Shown: in pieces, positions 2,911 through 34,035 of the stretch
Numbering within the stretch: the first letter of the stretch is position 1
Layout of the letters: the number at the start of each line of letters is the position of its first letter
Source of the DNA: Tannerellaceae bacterium
GTDB lineage: Bacteria > Bacteroidota > Bacteroidia > Bacteroidales > Tannerellaceae
Direction: 5' to 3'
NCBI GenBank assembly: GCA_031280435.1
Contig: JAITGS010000142.1
Coordinates: 1-34,147, forward strand
DNA length: 34,147 nt
Notes under the pieces: generated by a model
What the model saw: only the letters and a program-made list of their open reading frames with translations
Told to the model about the DNA's origin: nothing
Database searches by the model: none
Made by a program: the position numbers and the translations under genes

Positions 2911-3018
2911 CCGGGCAGGCGATGCCTATCACAAATGTGATCCGCCTGCCGAAAAGCTGCCGGAGGCGATCACAGATGGAATTTAGCCCAAAAAGTTCTC
3001 CGCAAGCCGATTCCAAAT
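2911..3018. other. Intergenic segment with degenerate 41-bp units
   Basis: This stretch leads into the perfect array that follows. The word CGAT recurs exactly 41 bp apart (in GGCGATCACA and again in GCCGATTCCA), and CTCCGCAAGC resembles the CTCCGCAGGC of the array at 7939. I read it as older, decayed units of the same array. No gene is seen. Confidence 0.45.
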
Positions 3019-3305
3019 GTAATTTCCTTCCCAAAAAAAATTTCAAGGAAATTTCATTTGTAATTTCCTTCCCAAAAAAAATTTCAAGGAAATTTCATTT
3101 GTAATTTCCTTCCCAAAAAAAATTTTAAGGAAATTCAGTTTGTAATTTCCTTCCCAAAAAAAATTTTAAGGAAATTTCATTTGTAATTTCCTTCCCAAAA
3201 AAAAATTTAAGGAAATTACATCTGTGAAATCCTTCCCAAAAAAAATTTTAAGGAAATTACATCTGTGAAATCCTTCCCAAAAAAATTTTTAAGGAAATTA
3301 CATTC
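3019..3305. repeat. Tandem array 1: seven 41-bp units
   Basis: Seven contiguous units of exactly 41 bp start at 3019, 3060, 3101, 3142, 3183, 3224 and 3265. Units 1 and 2 are identical; later ones drift, and units 6-7 begin GTGAAATCC instead of GTAATTTCC. Each of the first five units holds an inverted repeat, AATTTCCTT and AAGGAAATT, around a spacer of about 15 nt with an A-tract followed by T's. There are no spacers, so it is not CRISPR. It lies between the truncated RND gene and the adaptor gene, both on the plus strand. Function unknown. Confidence 0.95.
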
Positions 3306-7938: not shown

Positions 7939-8307
7939 CTCCGCAAACAATCCAACAAGTTAGTTTGGCTGAATGATTTCTCCGCAAGCAATCTAACAAG
8001 TTAGTTTGGCTGATTTTTTTTTCCGCAAACAATCTAACAAGTTAGTTTGGCTGAATTTTTTCTCCGCAGACGATCGAACAAGTTAGTTTGGCTGAATTTT
8101 TTCTCCGCAGGCGATCTAACAAGTTGGTTTGGCTGAATTTTTTCTCCGCAGGCGATCTAACAAGTTAGTTCGGCTGAATTTTTTCTCCGCAGACGATCGA
8201 ACAAGTTTGTTTGGCTGAATTTTTTCTCCGCAGACGATCTAACAAATTAGTTCGGCTGAATTTTTTTTCCGCAGGCGATCTAACAAGTTAGTCGGCATAT
8301 TGTCTTT
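7939..8307. repeat. Tandem array 2: nine 41-bp units
   Basis: Units start at 7939, 7980, 8021, 8062, 8103, 8144, 8185, 8226 and 8267, each 41 bp; the last is decayed after GTTAGTC. The pattern is CTCCGCAGGCGATCTAACAA followed by GTTAGTTTGGCTGA and a run of T. A small dyad CTAAC-AA-GTTAG is present in most units, followed about 11 nt later by six to eight T, superficially like a weak terminator repeated nine times. The array lies between the convergent RND2 and kinase genes. Confidence 0.95.
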
Positions 8308-8381: not shown

Positions 8382-9347
8382 TTAGCGGCTTGACAGTAGT
8401 GCTATGCAGGCAATTATGCTGAGGCATGCGATGGCGAGGATGGCCCAGGCGGCGAGCATAAGCTGGTAGTTGTTGAGGCGGGCGAGGATAGGAGGAAGAT
8501 GCAGGCGCAGCTTGTTTGTTGGCGCCGGAGGTTTGTCGGCGAGCTCGGCTATGGCAGCCGATTTGATCTCGGCGGCCGACGGACGGCTGCATGCGTCTTT
8601 CGAGAGGCATCGCATGATGAGATCCTTCAAGGCCGGCGATCGATCGCCCTCAATGAGCAGGAGATCGGCGCCCTTATGAAGCTGAATCCCTCCTTTATCG
8701 CCGAATGGAGCCGAGCCGGTCAGCAGCTCGTACATGCTTGCGCCGAGGGAAAAGATGTCGGAGGCTTTGGCGGGAGCGGCGCCGCGCACAAAGCGTTCGG
8801 GGCTCATGTAGGCAGGGGTGCCGACGGATCGTTCGGGAGCCTCTGTCGCCGACGTCAGCGGATTCATCTTCCGGCATATCCCGAAGTCGGCAAGTAGATA
8901 ACTCCCGCCGGGGCCTGCAAGGATGTTGCCGGGCTTGACGTCGCAATGAACTAAGGGCGGCTCCAGGCTGTGAAGATAGTCGAGAGCCGAAGCCACGTCG
9001 CGCATCATCTTCCAGGCCTCTTGCTCGCTCAGTTTGCCAACGAGGCGGCCTGCCGATCCTCCTTCGCAATATGGCATAATCAGGCATGGAATATCCTGAT
9101 ATACCTCGAAGAAGATGGGGAGGAGGAGGTTCTCGTGACGGAGACTGAAGGTCAGGGCATACTCGGCTGCAAATGCTTTCGCACGCTTGGCCGCCTCATC
9201 GGCAGAGGATTCAACGCAGGCCTTGATGGCTATTAACAGCCCGGTAGGAAGGTCGTCGGCGAGCCATACTTCGGAAAAACCTCCCTTGCCGAGGATATGC
9301 CTGAGGCTATACCGACCGGCAAAGAGAGTATTTTCTTGCAGCTTCAT
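8382..9347 (-). CDS. Serine/threonine protein kinase, tail-anchored
   Basis: This is a Hanks-type kinase that should phosphorylate Ser/Thr residues on protein partners, most likely FHA-linked products of the same cluster. With the start at 9347 (MKLQENTLF) it is 321 aa. The frame runs upstream to 9422, but that start overlaps the preceding gene by 59 bp. All catalytic motifs are present: glycine loop GKGGFSEVW at ~20, Lys42 in IAIK, HCD with Asp136 followed by VKPGN, DFG at 154-156, activation segment VGTPAYMSPER, and the SDIFSLG helix. One hydrophobic segment at the very C-terminus (MLAAWAILAIACLSIIACIA) should anchor it in the inner membrane with the kinase in the cytoplasm. There is no extracellular sensor domain. 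It is the last gene of a four-gene minus-strand cluster, 16 bp after its neighbour. Confidence 0.93.
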   Translation of the reverse strand: MKLQENTLFAGRYSLRHILGKGGFSEVWLADDLPTGLLIAIKACVESSADEAAKRAKAFAAEYALTFSLRHENLLLPIFFEVYQDIPCLIMPYCEGGSAGRLVGKLSEQEAWKMMRDVASALDYLHSLEPPLVHCDVKPGNILAGPGGSYLLADFGICRKMNPLTSATEAPERSVGTPAYMSPERFVRGAAPAKASDIFSLGASMYELLTGSAPFGDKGGIQLHKGADLLLIEGDRSPALKDLIMRCLSKDACSRPSAAEIKSAAIAELADKPPAPTNKLRLHLPPILARLNNYQLMLAAWAILAIACLSIIACIALLSSR

Positions 9348-9363
9348 TACAGGGCAGGCCGGC

Positions 9364-11007
9364 TTACTTAGACTGCGGCAGAGGTACGACCATGCGACGT
9401 CCGTCGGCGCTCGATACGGCAAGGAGGCCTACCACTACGGGCTTGCCGGAGTTGTTGACGGCAAACACAGGCGATCCGGCTCCTATCTGCAGAAAGCCGT
9501 CGCCCTCGGTTGCTATCAGGCCGTTCACGAGGCTGCCGGCTGTTGTAAGGCCCTCGCCTGAGGCCAGGCCATCGGTCGGGCTAATGCCTATCTGCGACGG
9601 GAAGCCGTAGGAGTCGAGTCGGATGCCTTTGCCCGGAAGGCTGCGGGAGCTGAACTGCAAGCCTCCGTTCGGCTTCAGCTGCAGGTATGCCACGTCTTTG
9701 TCGGGCAACGCGGGAGCGAAGCTTTGCTTAGTCGACTTGTCGACGATGTCGGCAGAACGGTCGGCCACGAAGATGTTGCCGGTGAAGGTAAAGGAATGGC
9801 CCGAAGGCGAGGTTGCGGTAAAGTATGCAATCACCCTCCCGCCTTTCTCCGTCAAAGCATTCAGAGCCGAGAGCTCTTTATACTCCCTGAACTTCCAGCG
9901 TTCAACGAGAGAGCGGGCCGTAACGAAGCGCCCGTCGTCGAGAAGGAAACCGACGCCGGCCCAGCTTGTTTTGTTGGTGTTGAATATGCCGAACTCATTC
10001 TTGGGGCCGAACATCTCTATCTTGTCGAGACGTATATAATATATGTAAGGAAAGCAGGGGGCGTATACCGACGTCGGTTTCTCCTGCTCCTCCGTCTTCT
10101 CCTGTTCCTTATGGCTTGCGACGGTTGCAGCTCTCGGCGGCTGGTTCCTTACGAGGCTCGGTGTGCGCATCGGGCGGCCCTGCTTAGGTTGCAGATTGCG
10201 GTGCACGGCGGCGATGTCGCTTGTGAGGCGGTTTTCGGATTCGGTGATGTGCAAGCGTATGTCGCGGGTATTGTTCCGTAGCACTCCGGCAAGATTCTCG
10301 TCGGAGCGATTGATGAGGCGGGCCAGCTCGTATTGACGGCGCTTGACTTCGTCGAGGCCGCTGCGCACTTCGCTGAGTTCGCTGCTTACCGATTCTATGC
10401 TTTGCCTTACGCCGGCCACCTCGCTGCGAGTTTCATCCATAAAGCGCTCCGACTTGTTCCAGTCGGCTATGGCCCATATTGCAAGCGCCGCTACGAGAAC
10501 TATCAGCGAGCCGGCAATGATAGCGGCAGTTTGCCGGAAGGATGTAGCCAGTCGCCGTCCGAGCCTGTCTATATGCTCTGCGATGTAGAGCGTGCGGCTT
10601 TCATGAGGTTCGCGAACCGGAGGCAGCGGCGGAACAACTGCTTCGTCCGGCTGAACAACTATGAAGCCGAGCCGTGGCCCGCCGGCCGACAGTTGTATCT
10701 CATCGCCATGCTGAAGATACCATTGGTTGCTGACCTCATGCCCGTTCACCAGCGTTTGTTTTATACGCGAGAGGCGAACGAGCTTCCAGCCGTCGGCTTC
10801 CCGCACTATGGCTGCATGTCGGCGGCTTACGGACAATAGCGAGTCGTCGAAGCGGATTTTGCATTGCGGGTCACGCCCTATTTCTATCTGTTCGTGGCGT
10901 ATGGTTTCCCGTTCGCCTATGCTGTGATACTGCGATTCGGTGCGATGCTCAATGATATAGGCCTGCGGTGCGGTAGTAGAGTTGCGATGTGTTGTGTGCG
11001 GATTCAT
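9364..11007 (-). CDS. FHA, membrane and coiled-coil protein with trypsin-like pseudoprotease domain
   Basis: The 547-aa protein has an N-terminal FHA phosphothreonine-binding domain (~35-120; GRDPQC, VSRRHA and NGHE carry the conserved Gly-Arg, Ser-Arg-x-x-His region and Asn-Gly). One membrane helix follows at ~161-183, then a long heptad-like stretch to ~270, a charged linker, and a C-terminal domain with the layout of a trypsin-like peptidase (GVGFLLDDGRFVTARSLV, DVAYLQLK, GAGSPVFAV). The catalytic His is replaced by Ser (TARSLV, where active relatives have TARHVV) and the catalytic Ser by Ala (GAGSP for GDSGSP); only the Asp remains. I therefore predict a non-catalytic sensor or binding domain in the periplasm, linked to a cytoplasmic FHA that could dock onto the kinase gene products. 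The gene lies 20 bp after the pseudokinase gene. Confidence 0.8.
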   Translation of the reverse strand: MNPHTTHRNSTTAPQAYIIEHRTESQYHSIGERETIRHEQIEIGRDPQCKIRFDDSLLSVSRRHAAIVREADGWKLVRLSRIKQTLVNGHEVSNQWYLQHGDEIQLSAGGPRLGFIVVQPDEAVVPPLPPVREPHESRTLYIAEHIDRLGRRLATSFRQTAAIIAGSLIVLVAALAIWAIADWNKSERFMDETRSEVAGVRQSIESVSSELSEVRSGLDEVKRRQYELARLINRSDENLAGVLRNNTRDIRLHITESENRLTSDIAAVHRNLQPKQGRPMRTPSLVRNQPPRAATVASHKEQEKTEEQEKPTSVYAPCFPYIYYIRLDKIEMFGPKNEFGIFNTNKTSWAGVGFLLDDGRFVTARSLVERWKFREYKELSALNALTEKGGRVIAYFTATSPSGHSFTFTGNIFVADRSADIVDKSTKQSFAPALPDKDVAYLQLKPNGGLQFSSRSLPGKGIRLDSYGFPSQIGISPTDGLASGEGLTTAGSLVNGLIATEGDGFLQIGAGSPVFAVNNSGKPVVVGLLAVSSADGRRMVVPLPQSK

Positions 11008-11027
11008 TGACAGTATTAGATTGAAGG

Positions 11028-12377
11028 TTACACCGGCCGGCTTTCTTCCACTTGCAGCGTGGTGGCGCCCAGCTTGATGACACTGCCGGCTTTGAGCGCT
11101 ACGCCGTGAACGGAGATGCGCTTAGAGTCTACAAAGGTTCCGTTGGTCGACGTTTTCCATACGCCGCGCTGCCCTCCGTCGGGAATGACTAATTGCCCGT
11201 CGCGTATTATCCATTTCGTATGGTTTTCATTGGTTTCTATGGTGCAATGCACGCGCGAGATAAAGGACGTATCCTGTTCGCGCAGGCCGATCATATTGCG
11301 CGAGCCGCGGCCTACGGTTATCACCCGCGATTTCTGCAGCAGGCTGTTGAGCGTATAAACTTTGCCGGGCTCGCTGCCCTCCGTCACCCGCAGAGACATT
11401 TGCGGAGCCACAGCCGGCGGAATATTGAGCGGGAACAGAGCTTCGGGAATCAGGCTCCCGGATGTATCGGCGGCGGCATCAGCTCCGGCACCGGCTCCGG
11501 AGGCATCTGTGTCGGGAGGCAGCAGGGCGATGACGCCGGCGGCAGAGTGGAACCTGGCGACATAGTCGGGGCTCAGGCATCCTTCTATAATCTTGCGCCA
11601 GAAAGGCTCGTCCGCAACTCCGTGCAGCAGCTTCCTGTTCCATTTGCCTTCTATGCAGCGGTTGCGATAGCTTCGCAGGTCGACCGGGTCGTCGGGCAAT
11701 CCGAAGGGATATTGTCGCGTGAGCAGATGATACAGCATCACTCCGAAGGCAAACATGTCGGAAGCCGGAAACACCTTAGCCCCCGTACGTTTCGCGCCTG
11801 TAAGTTCGGGAGCCAGGCAGGCCGCAGCTTCCAGCCGGCTCCGGAGGGCATAATCGGCTCCGTTACAGGCTTCGGAGATTTCAAAATCGAAGTCGGCCAG
11901 GAAAGCGCTCCCGTCGCGGCGAATCATGATGTTGGCAGGCTTCAGGTTGCGATGCGCATGCCCGTTGACATGCAGATCGTTCAGCCCGTTGAGCACCGAT
12001 TCGGCAATGAGCCGGACGTTGACCGGCGAATGTGAAGCGAGAAACTCGCTCAGGTTGCCCCGCTCGCCGTATTCCATAAGGATGAAAGGATTGCCGCCTT
12101 CTTCGCCGCTGTCTATTATTTTCGACAGATACAGGCTGGGGGGTTGCCCCGTTTTGTATTCTATATTAAAGCGGTTGATCCAGTCTTGCCGCTGAACGGG
12201 CGTCACTTCCCATAGCTTTAGAAGCTTGAACGTGGATATGATTCCGCTGGTTTGCCTGACGCGAAAAACCTTCCATACGGGGCTTTCGCCAATTAGCTGC
12301 TCAACGCAGTATCGCCCGCCGCCAATCCTTTGGCCCGGGCTGTAATCTCCCCTTTGTACGATGAAATTGTGAAACAT
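11028..12377 (-). CDS. Kinase-like protein with C-terminal FHA domain (predicted pseudokinase)
   Basis: This 449-aa protein is a protein-kinase fold (~20-285) followed by a spacer rich in Ala/Gly/Asp and a canonical FHA domain (~355-445: GRGSRN, ISRVHC, NGTFV). The N-lobe Lys survives (Lys51 in STFKLLK), as do the Asn of the catalytic loop (Asn149) and the first Asp of the magnesium site (Asp162). The catalytic HRD Asp is Asn (H142-R143-N144) and DFG reads DFD. Loss of the catalytic base predicts little or no phosphotransfer, so a scaffold or regulator role is likely, with the FHA domain binding a phosphothreonine on a partner. No membrane helix is visible. It sits between the zinc-ribbon gene (35 bp gap) and the membrane FHA gene (20 bp gap). 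Confidence 0.85.
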   Translation of the reverse strand: MFHNFIVQRGDYSPGQRIGGGRYCVEQLIGESPVWKVFRVRQTSGIISTFKLLKLWEVTPVQRQDWINRFNIEYKTGQPPSLYLSKIIDSGEEGGNPFILMEYGERGNLSEFLASHSPVNVRLIAESVLNGLNDLHVNGHAHRNLKPANIMIRRDGSAFLADFDFEISEACNGADYALRSRLEAAACLAPELTGAKRTGAKVFPASDMFAFGVMLYHLLTRQYPFGLPDDPVDLRSYRNRCIEGKWNRKLLHGVADEPFWRKIIEGCLSPDYVARFHSAAGVIALLPPDTDASGAGAGADAAADTSGSLIPEALFPLNIPPAVAPQMSLRVTEGSEPGKVYTLNSLLQKSRVITVGRGSRNMIGLREQDTSFISRVHCTIETNENHTKWIIRDGQLVIPDGGQRGVWKTSTNGTFVDSKRISVHGVALKAGSVIKLGATTLQVEESRPV

Positions 12378-12412
12378 AGACTTTACAAATATTCGTTATC
12401 TACTCTATACTT

Positions 12413-13006
12413 TTATCCGAACTCGAACCTCTGGTTGCCCATGACGATGATGTCGCCCGGCTTCAGCTCCGTTTTGGAGGCGGCCCGTATGAATGTTGTG
12501 CAATGTTCGCTTTTATCTTGAATATACCATTTGTCGTTTTCGTATTCCAGAAGGGCGTGGGCCTTCTCGCAGAGGGAATGGTTGCTGGGGTCGAGGTTGT
12601 CGCGGTTCAGCACTATTTGCTCGCCGCTGAAAGTCAGTGTTTGCGACTTGCGCATGTTGCTCGACCGAATCATCTTCATGCGGCAGGAGGGCTGTCGCCG
12701 GTTTGTGCGCGCAGGCGATGCCTGTATAGTCTCGCCCACAGGCTCGTCGGTCGGCACAGGTGCTCCGCATAGCGGGCAGCTTGCGGCGTCGGGAAGCAGT
12801 GGATATTGGCAGTCCGTGCAAATCTTTTCGAACGTATAGGGCGCGGCTGCGGGCTCCGCTTGAGCAAGGCTCAGGCTGCTGTGCTCCTCCTTAGCGCCGG
12901 AGGGCTCCGTAGGTGGAAGATACTGCAGGATGGAGTCGCATTTTTTACACTTCAACCGCCTCTCCTTGTTTTCCCAACCGCAATGACTGCATCTCATCTT
13001 ATTCAT
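12413..13006 (-). CDS. Double zinc-ribbon protein with degenerate FHA-like domain
   Basis: The 197-aa protein starts with two zinc ribbons: Cys6/Cys9/Cys20/Cys23 and Cys63/Cys66/Cys77/Cys80, each CxxC...CxxC. The C-terminal ~85 residues (from QTLTFSGEQIVLNRDN to QRFEFG) follow the spacing of an FHA fold: LNRDN for the Gly-Arg strand, EKAHALLEYENDKWYI for the SRxH region and LKPGDIIVMG for the last strands. The usual Gly is Asn and the Ser-Arg of the peptide-binding loop is Glu-Lys, so phosphothreonine recognition may be lost. It is the first gene of the minus-strand kinase/FHA cluster. It may be a cytoplasmic adaptor for the kinases; that role is inferred from position. Confidence 0.75.
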   Translation of the reverse strand: MNKMRCSHCGWENKERRLKCKKCDSILQYLPPTEPSGAKEEHSSLSLAQAEPAAAPYTFEKICTDCQYPLLPDAASCPLCGAPVPTDEPVGETIQASPARTNRRQPSCRMKMIRSSNMRKSQTLTFSGEQIVLNRDNLDPSNHSLCEKAHALLEYENDKWYIQDKSEHCTTFIRAASKTELKPGDIIVMGNQRFEFG

Positions 13007-13032: not shown

Positions 13033-13040
13033 CAAATATA
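13033..13040 (-). promoter_or_regulatory. Candidate -7 element TATATTTG
   Basis: Read on the minus strand this is TATATTTG, a match to the Bacteroidetes TAnnTTTG -7 box, 26 bp before the ATG of the zinc-ribbon gene. I see no good TTG at the -33 position, so confidence is limited. Confidence 0.45.
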
Positions 13041-13295
13041 TGATATATAATCTTAATCTCCCTTAGCCCCGGCATTTTTTTTGTTGATTGGCCCGGGCAA
13101 CAATGTCGAGCATTTTCCGCCGTTCCATGCCGCCGCCTCCATCCTCGCCCGCAAAATTCCCCGCTTCATCCGGGCCGCAAGATGTCCGGCCCAAAAACTC
13201 CTGCGGCCGCGCCTTCGCCCCCTGTTCTGTACGGCGGCTTTGCCTATCCTCCTTGCACAGAGTAGAAGAGCTCCGGTATTTGTTCGGGCCGTTCA
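13041..13295. other. Intergenic segment with decayed repeat traces
   Basis: GC-rich, low-complexity sequence without a credible gene. GGGCCGCAAGATG near 13170 resembles the unit head of the following array and lies about three periods upstream of it, suggesting older units of array 3. Confidence 0.35.
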
Positions 13296-13746
13296 GGCAG
13301 CAAAACAGTGCTGAAACCTTTCCGGGCAGCCATTCGGGCAGCAAGATCGGGGCTGAAATTTTCCGGCAATCCATTTGGGTAGCGCGATCCTCTGAAAAGA
13401 AAAATTTCAAGCCTTTTGGGCAGCAAGATTCTCTAAAATAAAAAATTTCAAGGATTTTGGGCAGCGAGATTCGCTGAAAAAAAAATTTTTTCAAGGATTT
13501 TAGGTAGCAAGAATCTCTGAAAAAAAAAATTTCAAGGATTTTAGGCAGCAAGATAGTCTGAAAAAATTTTTTTTAAGCCATTCGGGTAGCGAGACGGGTT
13601 GAGGCTTTTTCCGAGAGGGCATTTAGGTAGCAAGACGGGCTGATTTTTTTCTGCGAGGGCATTCAGGTGGCAAAATGGGCTGATTTTTTTTCTGCGAGGC
13701 GATTTAGGTGGCAAGATGGACTGAAGGAAAATTTAGGGTCGCTTAG
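13296..13746. repeat. Tandem array 3: about eleven ~41-bp units of two sub-types
   Basis: Unit starts (GGCAGC, GGTAGC or GGTGGC) lie at 13296, 13337, 13378, 13419, 13460, 13503, 13544, 13585, 13626, 13666 and 13707: seven complete units of 41 bp on either side of one of 43, another of 40 at 13626, and a decayed last copy. Units from 13378 to 13544 carry CTGA plus an A-tract and TTTCAAGG. Units from 13585 to 13666 instead carry a T-tract followed by CTGCGAGG or similar. The array separates the divergent kinase/FHA cluster and sigma-54 activator, so it sits between two promoters. Confidence 0.92.
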
Positions 13747-23282: not shown

Positions 23283-23479
23283 ACTTCCGTAAGTTTACAA
23301 AAGCTTGCGGGCGGCCAAATTTAAGCTTCCGTAAGTTTACAAAAGCTTGCGGGCGGCCAAATTCAAGCTTCCGTAAGTTTACAGAAGCTTGCGGGAAACC
23401 AAATTCAAGCTTCCGTAAGTTTACAGAAGCTTACGGGCGGCCAAATTCAAGCTTTCGTAAGCTTACAAAAAGATTGCGA
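23283..23479. repeat. Tandem array 4: 42-bp units
   Basis: Unit starts are 23283, 23325, 23367, 23409 and 23451; the last is partial and decayed. Each 42-bp unit is close to perfect. The dyad arms AAGCTTCCGTAA and TTACAGAAGCTT (23365-23376 and 23379-23390 in the third copy) match at 11 of 12 positions around a 2-bp centre. Because 42 is a multiple of three, the array is open as a 14-residue peptide repeat, which I do not take as coding. Confidence 0.93.
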
Positions 23480-33580: not shown

Positions 33581-33726
33581 ATATGTCGTTAAAATTTGTA
33601 TCTAATAACGCGAACTATAAGCCCTTTATTGTTTGGCAAAGAGAATTGATTGCTGTCCGGAAAATAAATCCGGCGAAGAAACAAGGGCTGTCTTTTACTA
33701 TTCCGACAGGCTTTCTTTACAACCCC

Positions 33727-34035
33727 CTTTGGGGGATGGGCAAACCGATTTCGGTTGGAGCTTTCCACCTTGGGGGATCCGCCAGCCGATTTCGGTTGAA
33801 GCTTTCCACCTTGGGGGATCCGTCAGCCGATTTCGGTTGAAGCTTTCCCCATTGGGGGATCCGCCAGACGATTTCGGTTGAAGCTTTCCCCATTGGGGGA
33901 TGGGCAAACCGATTTCGGTTGGAACTTTCCCCTTTGGGGGATCCGCCAACCGATTTCGGTTGGAGCTTTCCCCTTTGGGGGATCCGTCAACCGAAATCGG
34001 TTGGAGTTTTCCACTTTGGGGGATCCGCCAACCGG
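33727..34035. repeat. Tandem array 5: seven and a half 41-bp units
   Basis: Units start at 33727, 33768, 33809, 33850, 33891, 33932, 33973 and a partial at 34014, all exactly 41 bp. The best units have a perfect 8-bp dyad, CCAACCGA and TCGGTTGG, around two bases (33948-33965 region), preceded by TTGGGGGATCCG. In the unit at 33973 the two centre bases read AA where the others read TT, giving CCGAAATCGG in place of CCGATTTCGG. It lies upstream of the ruvA promoter side. Confidence 0.95.

Follow-up and report, generated by a model that had tools for sequence, protein, structure and literature searches.

The window, by which we mean the whole 34,147-nucleotide stretch of DNA that was analysed, comes from a gut Tannerellaceae bacterium and contains a compact cluster of four open reading frames on the minus strand. 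In order of transcription these are the genes for P4 (13006–12413), P3 (12377–11028), P2 (11007–9364) and P1 (9347–8382), with intergenic gaps of 35, 20 and 16 bp. The coordinates agree with the preliminary description, made from the sequence of the window, which had reported four minus-strand genes with gaps of 16–35 bp and, correctly, neither a PP2C phosphatase nor a VWA gene inside the cluster. The start codon of P1 is the ATG at 9347; a longer frame initiated by TTG (to 9422) would overlap the upstream gene.

Promoters of Bacteroidota differ from sigma-70 promoters. A likely promoter −7 element, TATATTTG, is located at 13033–13040 on the minus strand, 34 bp before the P4 start, and is a candidate by its match to TAnnTTTG, which we take to be the −7 consensus of Bacteroidota. 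Only 16 TAnnTTTG-like sites occur on both strands of the whole 34-kb window. A similar element, TATCTTTG, is found at the equivalent place (−35) in the only other cluster of this short type, on contig C21 of the nearest relative, the Tannerellaceae MAG Pc512_bin80 (G009). The genomic site of the cluster is not conserved among the relatives compared: in an empty-site comparison, the flanking efflux and sigma-54 genes lay on different contigs or far apart.

P4 (197 residues) is a double zinc-ribbon protein with a degenerate C-terminal FHA domain, for which Pfam reports a double zinc ribbon (DZR, 4.7e-8) and, over the cut-off, a weak FHA match (2.3e-6). The four Cys residues of the second ribbon are invariant in all 39 homologues, those of the first ribbon in 38 of the 39. 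Arg135 of the FHA domain is retained and the Ser of the SxxH pattern is replaced by Glu in the window protein; throughout the family the Asn-Gly motif is missing (39 of 39 members), as is the His in nearly all (37 of 39). Judged from these residues, phosphothreonine binding is unlikely anywhere in the family, and the loss of Asn-Gly, His and, here, Ser makes a role of P4 as adaptor more likely than one as reader. The Pfam matches and the motif loss bear out the zinc-ribbon protein with a worn FHA fold that had been described.

P3 (449 residues) combines a kinase domain (residues ∼20–290; Pkinase 2e-21) with an intact FHA domain (residues ∼326–445; FHA 8e-12) and is predicted to be soluble, since hydropathy analysis gave no transmembrane segment. 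The kinase domain has a PknB-like fold (Z 24.7). Four of its residues are altered, G32S, G35W, D144N (HRD to HRN) and G164D (DFG to DFD), all of which are intact in each of the 29 active sequences used for comparison; HRD and DFG are kept in about 75 kinase-FHA sequences in all. P3 thus departs from the active kinase-FHA proteins of its parent operon (see below) in the Gly loop, HRD and DFG, and what had been called a kinase-like FHA protein can be defined more sharply as a pseudokinase. Pseudokinases can retain activity, and as Lys51, Glu73, Asn149 and Asp162 are kept, nucleotide binding or weak activity of P3 is possible. The FHA domain is canonical, and is intact in both short clusters.

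P2 consists of a cytoplasmic FHA domain (residues 13–120; Pfam FHA 1.9e-13), a single transmembrane helix (∼156–182) supported by hydropathy, a long helix reaching to residue 271, and a periplasmic domain of trypsin/HtrA fold (304–547). The latter gave no Pfam match and was detected by structure and profile searches. An AlphaFold model built from 53 homologues has pLDDT values mostly above 90 in the FHA domain and in much of the protease domain. The modelled FHA domain resembles those of GarA, OdhI and EmbR, and residues 304–547 match DegQ, HtrA1, DegS and the trypsin domain of IgA1 protease in the PDB (Z 14.5–17); the family profile likewise matches DegQ and trypsins. P2 therefore has the double-barrel fold of S1/HtrA serine proteases and lacks their His-Asp-Ser triad: His366 is replaced by Ser and Ser510 by Ala, while Asp438 is retained. 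Model, PDB matches and triad loss confirm the earlier proposal of a transmembrane FHA/coiled-coil protein with a dead trypsin-like domain outside. Roughly three-quarters of the P2 homologues have an intact triad (among them G004 and G052), whereas the His is lost in all Parabacteroides/Tannerellaceae copies nearest to the window, which indicates that the death of the protease is older than the short form of the cluster. The FHA domain of P2 carries the canonical GR/S..H/NG residues in the window species; in G009 the Arg is a Ser, so that phospho-docking by P2 may be dispensable.

P1 (321 residues; Pkinase 7e-42) is an intact non-RD Ser/Thr kinase. All catalytic residues are present (K42, E62, HCD136, K138, N141, DFG154–156 and E184), and hydropathy places a C-terminal transmembrane segment at residues 293–321, in line with the tail-anchored kinase proposed before. 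P1 does not have the extracytoplasmic domain of ∼190 residues carried by a 546-residue paralogue encoded on another contig (C57) of the same genome.

The four genes are homologous to, and ordered as, genes of a larger Bacteroidales operon. When 84,980 genomes were scanned with an alignment of the FHA-TM protein, 138 relatives were obtained, of which 80 loci were kept, almost all from Bacteroidales and the remainder from other Bacteroidota. Conservation of gene order in relatives had been named beforehand as the check that could refute the proposed cluster; about 100 related Bacteroidales loci share the order ZnR-FHA, kinase-FHA, FHA-TM-protease, PP2C, membrane kinase. The kept loci were picked by similarity to the query, and the following fractions describe the FHA-TM operon family only: the ZnR-FHA and kinase-FHA genes are present in all 65 loci with at least 3.5 kb of upstream sequence, all five families in 43 of the 45 loci with 5 kb on both sides, and the window is the one locus without PP2C among the 66 that extend at least 3 kb downstream. 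HMM mapping revealed optional genes: an ExbB-like pair before the FHA-TM-protease gene, a gene for an unknown secreted protein (X1), often before PP2C, and genes for BACON-domain or repeat proteins, often after the transmembrane kinase. In a sample from across the order, 12 of 393 genomes carry the operon, as do 17 of 125 of the family; some hold several copies. A further reduced cluster, L164, keeps an active kinase-FHA, and the 10 kb examined there contain no PP2C gene.

In a type VI secretion locus of the relative G021, a member of Bacteroidota, TssK-like, TssC, TssD, VgrG and ClpV-like genes are accompanied by genes for ZnR-FHA, an FHA-FHA-trypsin protein, a PP2C and an active-looking kinase; the kinase-FHA protein encoded there is a second, separate pseudokinase, inactivated independently (HCR, no DFG, β3 Lys lost). 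The ZnR-FHA/kinase-FHA toolkit can therefore also work for an envelope machine.

The short cluster of the window lacks the PP2C, X1 and BACON genes of the fuller operon. As the order of the family is kept although PP2C is absent, we regard the cluster as a variant descended from this operon family, and the absence of PP2C, judged by comparison with the gene content of the parent operon, as a derived loss. Three PP2C genes are encoded elsewhere in the genome. The preliminary view of a four-gene signalling set is upheld as to domains and operon structure, but the set is not a stand-alone design; it is a reduced paralogue of an operon with PP2C and an active kinase-FHA.

Such a fuller operon is present in the same genome. 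Contig C57 encodes ZnR-FHA, an active kinase-FHA with HRD and DFG intact, an FHA-TM protein with a dead protease domain, PP2C, the 546-residue transmembrane kinase and a BACON protein. In G009, too, where the kinase gene of the short cluster directly follows the FHA-TM gene as in the window, a second contig (C104) contains the start of a fuller cluster and ends inside its third gene; each of the two genomes with a short cluster holds a fuller copy as well, in which the first kinase is active. These two short clusters, from MAGs that are 83% (the genome of the window) and 60% complete, are the only ones known. Their products are 55–69% identical, with conserved gene order and spacing. Identity is 64–77% in the pseudokinase N-lobe, the FHA domain and the pseudoprotease, and 15–25% in the linkers. 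The dN/dS ratios between the two species are 0.08–0.22, at dS values of 1.0, 1.5 and 1.7 for three genes compared with 1.4 for a housekeeping-type control (P4 was saturated), which indicates that the genes are maintained and not decaying. In the tree of kinase-FHA proteins, the two pseudokinases are sisters (support 100/100) on a long stem of 2.6 changes, and the pair groups (96/95) with active copies that come from full clusters of the same genus. Grouping, long stem and low dN/dS together suggest that the short form arose by duplication, changed rapidly and then settled. Short-cluster and full-cluster paralogues are now about 39–41% identical.

We propose that a conserved Bacteroidales operon for trans-envelope Ser/Thr phospho-signalling gave rise to the short cluster as a reduced paralogue rich in pseudoenzymes, and that its products work as a phospho-assembled membrane complex, a reading to which, taken as a whole, we give an about even chance. 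The identity of the cluster is well supported; the phosphorylation, docking and ligand steps and the direction of signalling are what we infer from it. The parent operon would use two kinases and the PP2C phosphatase to set the phosphorylation of its FHA-bearing partners, one of which would span the membrane and end in an HtrA-type protease domain outside. Catalysis by the protease was lost as early as the ancestor of the local clade; absent from the short form are, in addition, the PP2C gene, the extracytoplasmic domain of the second kinase and, as predicted, the catalysis of the first. A single kinase still works, and the short set probably functions by protein binding and by the assembly of partners at the membrane. 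Threonines of the tail-anchored P1 itself, of P3 or of both would be phosphorylated by P1; these marks would be docking sites for the FHA domain of P3 and, in the window species, for that of P2 as well, and P4 may bridge the resulting membrane complex as a zinc-ribbon adaptor. Outside, the pseudoprotease of P2 would bind, not cut, a ligand, and the coiled-coil transmembrane rod could transmit the ligand-bound state to the inner side. A PP2C from one of the genes located outside the cluster may reset phosphorylation. Phospho-dependent assembly is suggested by analogy with the MviN/FhaA/PknB system and by the intact P1 and FHA domains. An assembly of the other three proteins by the kinase through their FHA domains had been envisaged before: the intact P1 and the canonical FHA domains of P2 and P3 make this writer/reader logic plausible at the level of sequence, but the FHA domain of P4 is degenerate, so there are not three readers.

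Four other explanations were considered, in the order cross-regulation of the C57 cluster, a KKP-like conflict module, control of a type VI secretion system (T6SS) and decay. The short cluster may be a trans-acting competitor or decoy of the full cluster on C57, forming mixed complexes, sharing its PP2C and thereby tuning or poisoning the system. Consistent with such a role, both short-cluster genomes carry the fuller cluster (C57 in the genome of the window, G000; in G009 C104, cut by the contig end), each short-cluster component has its homologue in the full cluster, and with MamO and MamE there is a precedent for control of a protease by a pseudoprotease paralogue. We nevertheless consider it doubtful: the pattern comes from two genomes only, the divergence of the paralogues and the long stem branch may mean separate partners, and the C57 protease is itself dead, which leaves no known active protease of the family in the genome to be regulated. 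Simple decay of a functionless duplicate would account for the loss of several catalytic centres and for the domains missing in comparison with the full cluster. It is rejected on the dN/dS values and seems to us extremely improbable, as the four reading frames are intact in two species at dS of about 1.0–1.7 or more, identity is concentrated in the domains and not in the linkers, and order, spacing and the promoter-like element are conserved.

A toxin–antitoxin or anti-phage module resembling KKP, with a toxic kinase pair defused when the PP2C antitoxin was lost, is unlikely. It would fit the two kinases, one FHA-fused, and the PP2C of the full operon, its patchy distribution in the order with multiple copies per genome and variable downstream genes, and the coincidence of PP2C loss with inactivation of the first kinase in the short clade. 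However, no match was found in the viral contigs, plasmids or phages searched, the PADLOC matches (mad6, PD-T4-6) reflect generic kinase similarity, and a Pfam scan gave no cold-shock-domain kinase; on the first two grounds we rejected a defence-system reading. Further, P1 is still predicted to be active without a linked PP2C, and L164 keeps its active kinase-FHA. Regulation of a T6SS, as in the PpkA/PppA/Fha threonine phosphorylation pathway, is suggested by G021, where ZnR-FHA and an inactivated kinase-FHA are encoded beside T6SS genes. We judge it improbable for the short cluster, since no T6SS gene lies near any other of the ∼100 loci and no TssK match was obtained in the genome of the window (the model was insensitive and the assembly is 83% complete).

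Ser/Thr phospho-signalling in Bacteroidota has been little studied. In the open-access literature searched there was no description of a Bacteroidales ZnR-FHA/kinase-FHA/FHA-TM-protease operon, although absence there is not proof. We tentatively suggest that the operon could encode an undescribed Bacteroidales trans-envelope phospho-relay: Thr phosphorylation in the cytoplasm would be read by an FHA domain and so control a periplasmic HtrA-type protease via a transmembrane coiled coil (inside-out proteolysis). The window would then contain a derivative that has been maintained and works by binding alone; it would include pseudokinase and pseudoprotease and still signal with one kinase and no linked phosphatase. 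One genome holds a matched pair of clusters, one having PP2C and an active kinase-FHA and the other a pseudokinase-FHA but no PP2C, by which the role of a bacterial pseudokinase and pseudoprotease after loss of catalysis becomes testable. Cultured carriers, for example Odoribacter laneus (L105), give access to the parent system.

Among the known systems closest to the proposed complex is MviN (Rv3910)/FhaA/PknB of Mycobacterium tuberculosis, in which PknB phosphorylates the pseudokinase MviN, which is then recognised by the FHA protein FhaA (PMC12599244). The proposed complex would share with it the combination of an active kinase, a catalysis-free pseudokinase and an FHA protein at the membrane. 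In the mycobacterial system, FHA domain and pseudokinase belong to different proteins, and the latter is part of a MurJ-like flippase (PMC12599244); in the window, pseudokinase and FHA domain are joined in one soluble protein, and a transmembrane FHA-pseudoprotease and a zinc-ribbon partner are added. P3 does not belong to the DYD pseudokinase family, which is membrane-associated, has the β3 Lys changed to Arg and has lost the αC Glu, whereas P3 keeps K51 and E73 and has no transmembrane segment. P2 resembles MamO, a catalytically dead protease of trypsin type which binds metal and activates a second protease (PMC4794232), in having a trypsin/HtrA-fold domain with a degenerate triad, used in MamO and presumably in P2 for binding or regulation; MamO, however, has no FHA domain or kinase partner and is linked to magnetosome formation. 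With KKP (PMC11341870) the full Bacteroidales operon shares two kinases, one of them FHA-fused, and a PP2C. KKP is prophage-linked, carries a cold-shock-domain kinase and a PP2C in front of two kinases, and contains no zinc-ribbon FHA protein, transmembrane kinase or transmembrane protease; the window cluster has no PP2C, one dead kinase and, by Pfam scan, no cold-shock domain, and is thus not a KKP system. The TerY-P triad of VWA, PP2C and kinase-zinc ribbon proteins (PMC11090510) likewise brings zinc ribbon, kinase and, as in the full operon, PP2C into one neighbourhood, but the window has no VWA, PP2C or kinase-zinc ribbon fusion, and its zinc ribbon is fused to FHA. The T6SS PpkA/PppA/Fha pathway also combines a kinase, a PP2C (here in the full operon only) and FHA proteins at the envelope; it is without transmembrane FHA-protease and zinc-ribbon proteins, and among the loci examined only that of G021 shows T6SS linkage. 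On these comparisons, the operon is a variant of the known kinase-FHA-phosphatase modules and not a separate kind.

A further reduced cluster (L164 4450-6373, contig C24 of genome G489) encodes an active kinase-FHA protein and an FHA-TM protein shortened to 187 aa, which has no protease domain and whose gene is directly followed by that for the TM kinase. PP2C is absent within the 10 kb examined. Two clusters (L166 in G500 and L168 in G475) contain ZnR-FHA, FHA-TM-protease and PP2C; no kinase-FHA was recognised adjoining them. In other loci, ExbB/TolQ-like and coiled-coil DUF2135-like genes are located between the kinase-FHA and FHA-TM genes: L104 547-9535 (= G052:C531, L048), L061, L063, L064, L072, L084, L091, L105 and L133. 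The kinase-FHA gene of L104 is itself broken up into two ORFs.

Immediately downstream of the full cluster on C57, another contig of the window's genome, tyrosine recombinase and ParA/mobilisation-like genes were read from the sequences (L038 9218-13594), which suggests a mobile neighbourhood.

Intergenic regions of the window contain five tandem arrays (3018-3304, 7939-8292, 13288-13724, 23284-23478 and 33724-34034), each with a period of ~41-42 bp but with a unit sequence differing from array to array. The window's genome has similar 41-bp arrays on further contigs (L038 5422-5922, L045 1339-1681); they also occur in the relative G009 (L039 5705-5843, L135 2487-3094), and G012 has one with a period of 42 bp (L136). 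In G009, an array lies upstream of the same sigma-54 gene as in the window, but has a different unit. The ~41-42 bp arrays are a repeat found across the genus, constant in period and changeable in sequence.

In the relative G021, a type VI secretion locus of Bacteroidota type (L043 7717-15823 and L176 1132-17763) also encodes kinase, PP2C, FHA, FHA-FHA-trypsin and ZnR-FHA proteins. Its kinase-FHA is dead, having been inactivated independently. The kinase/PP2C/FHA gene set of G021 may represent a threonine-phosphorylation control module of a Bacteroidota type VI secretion system.
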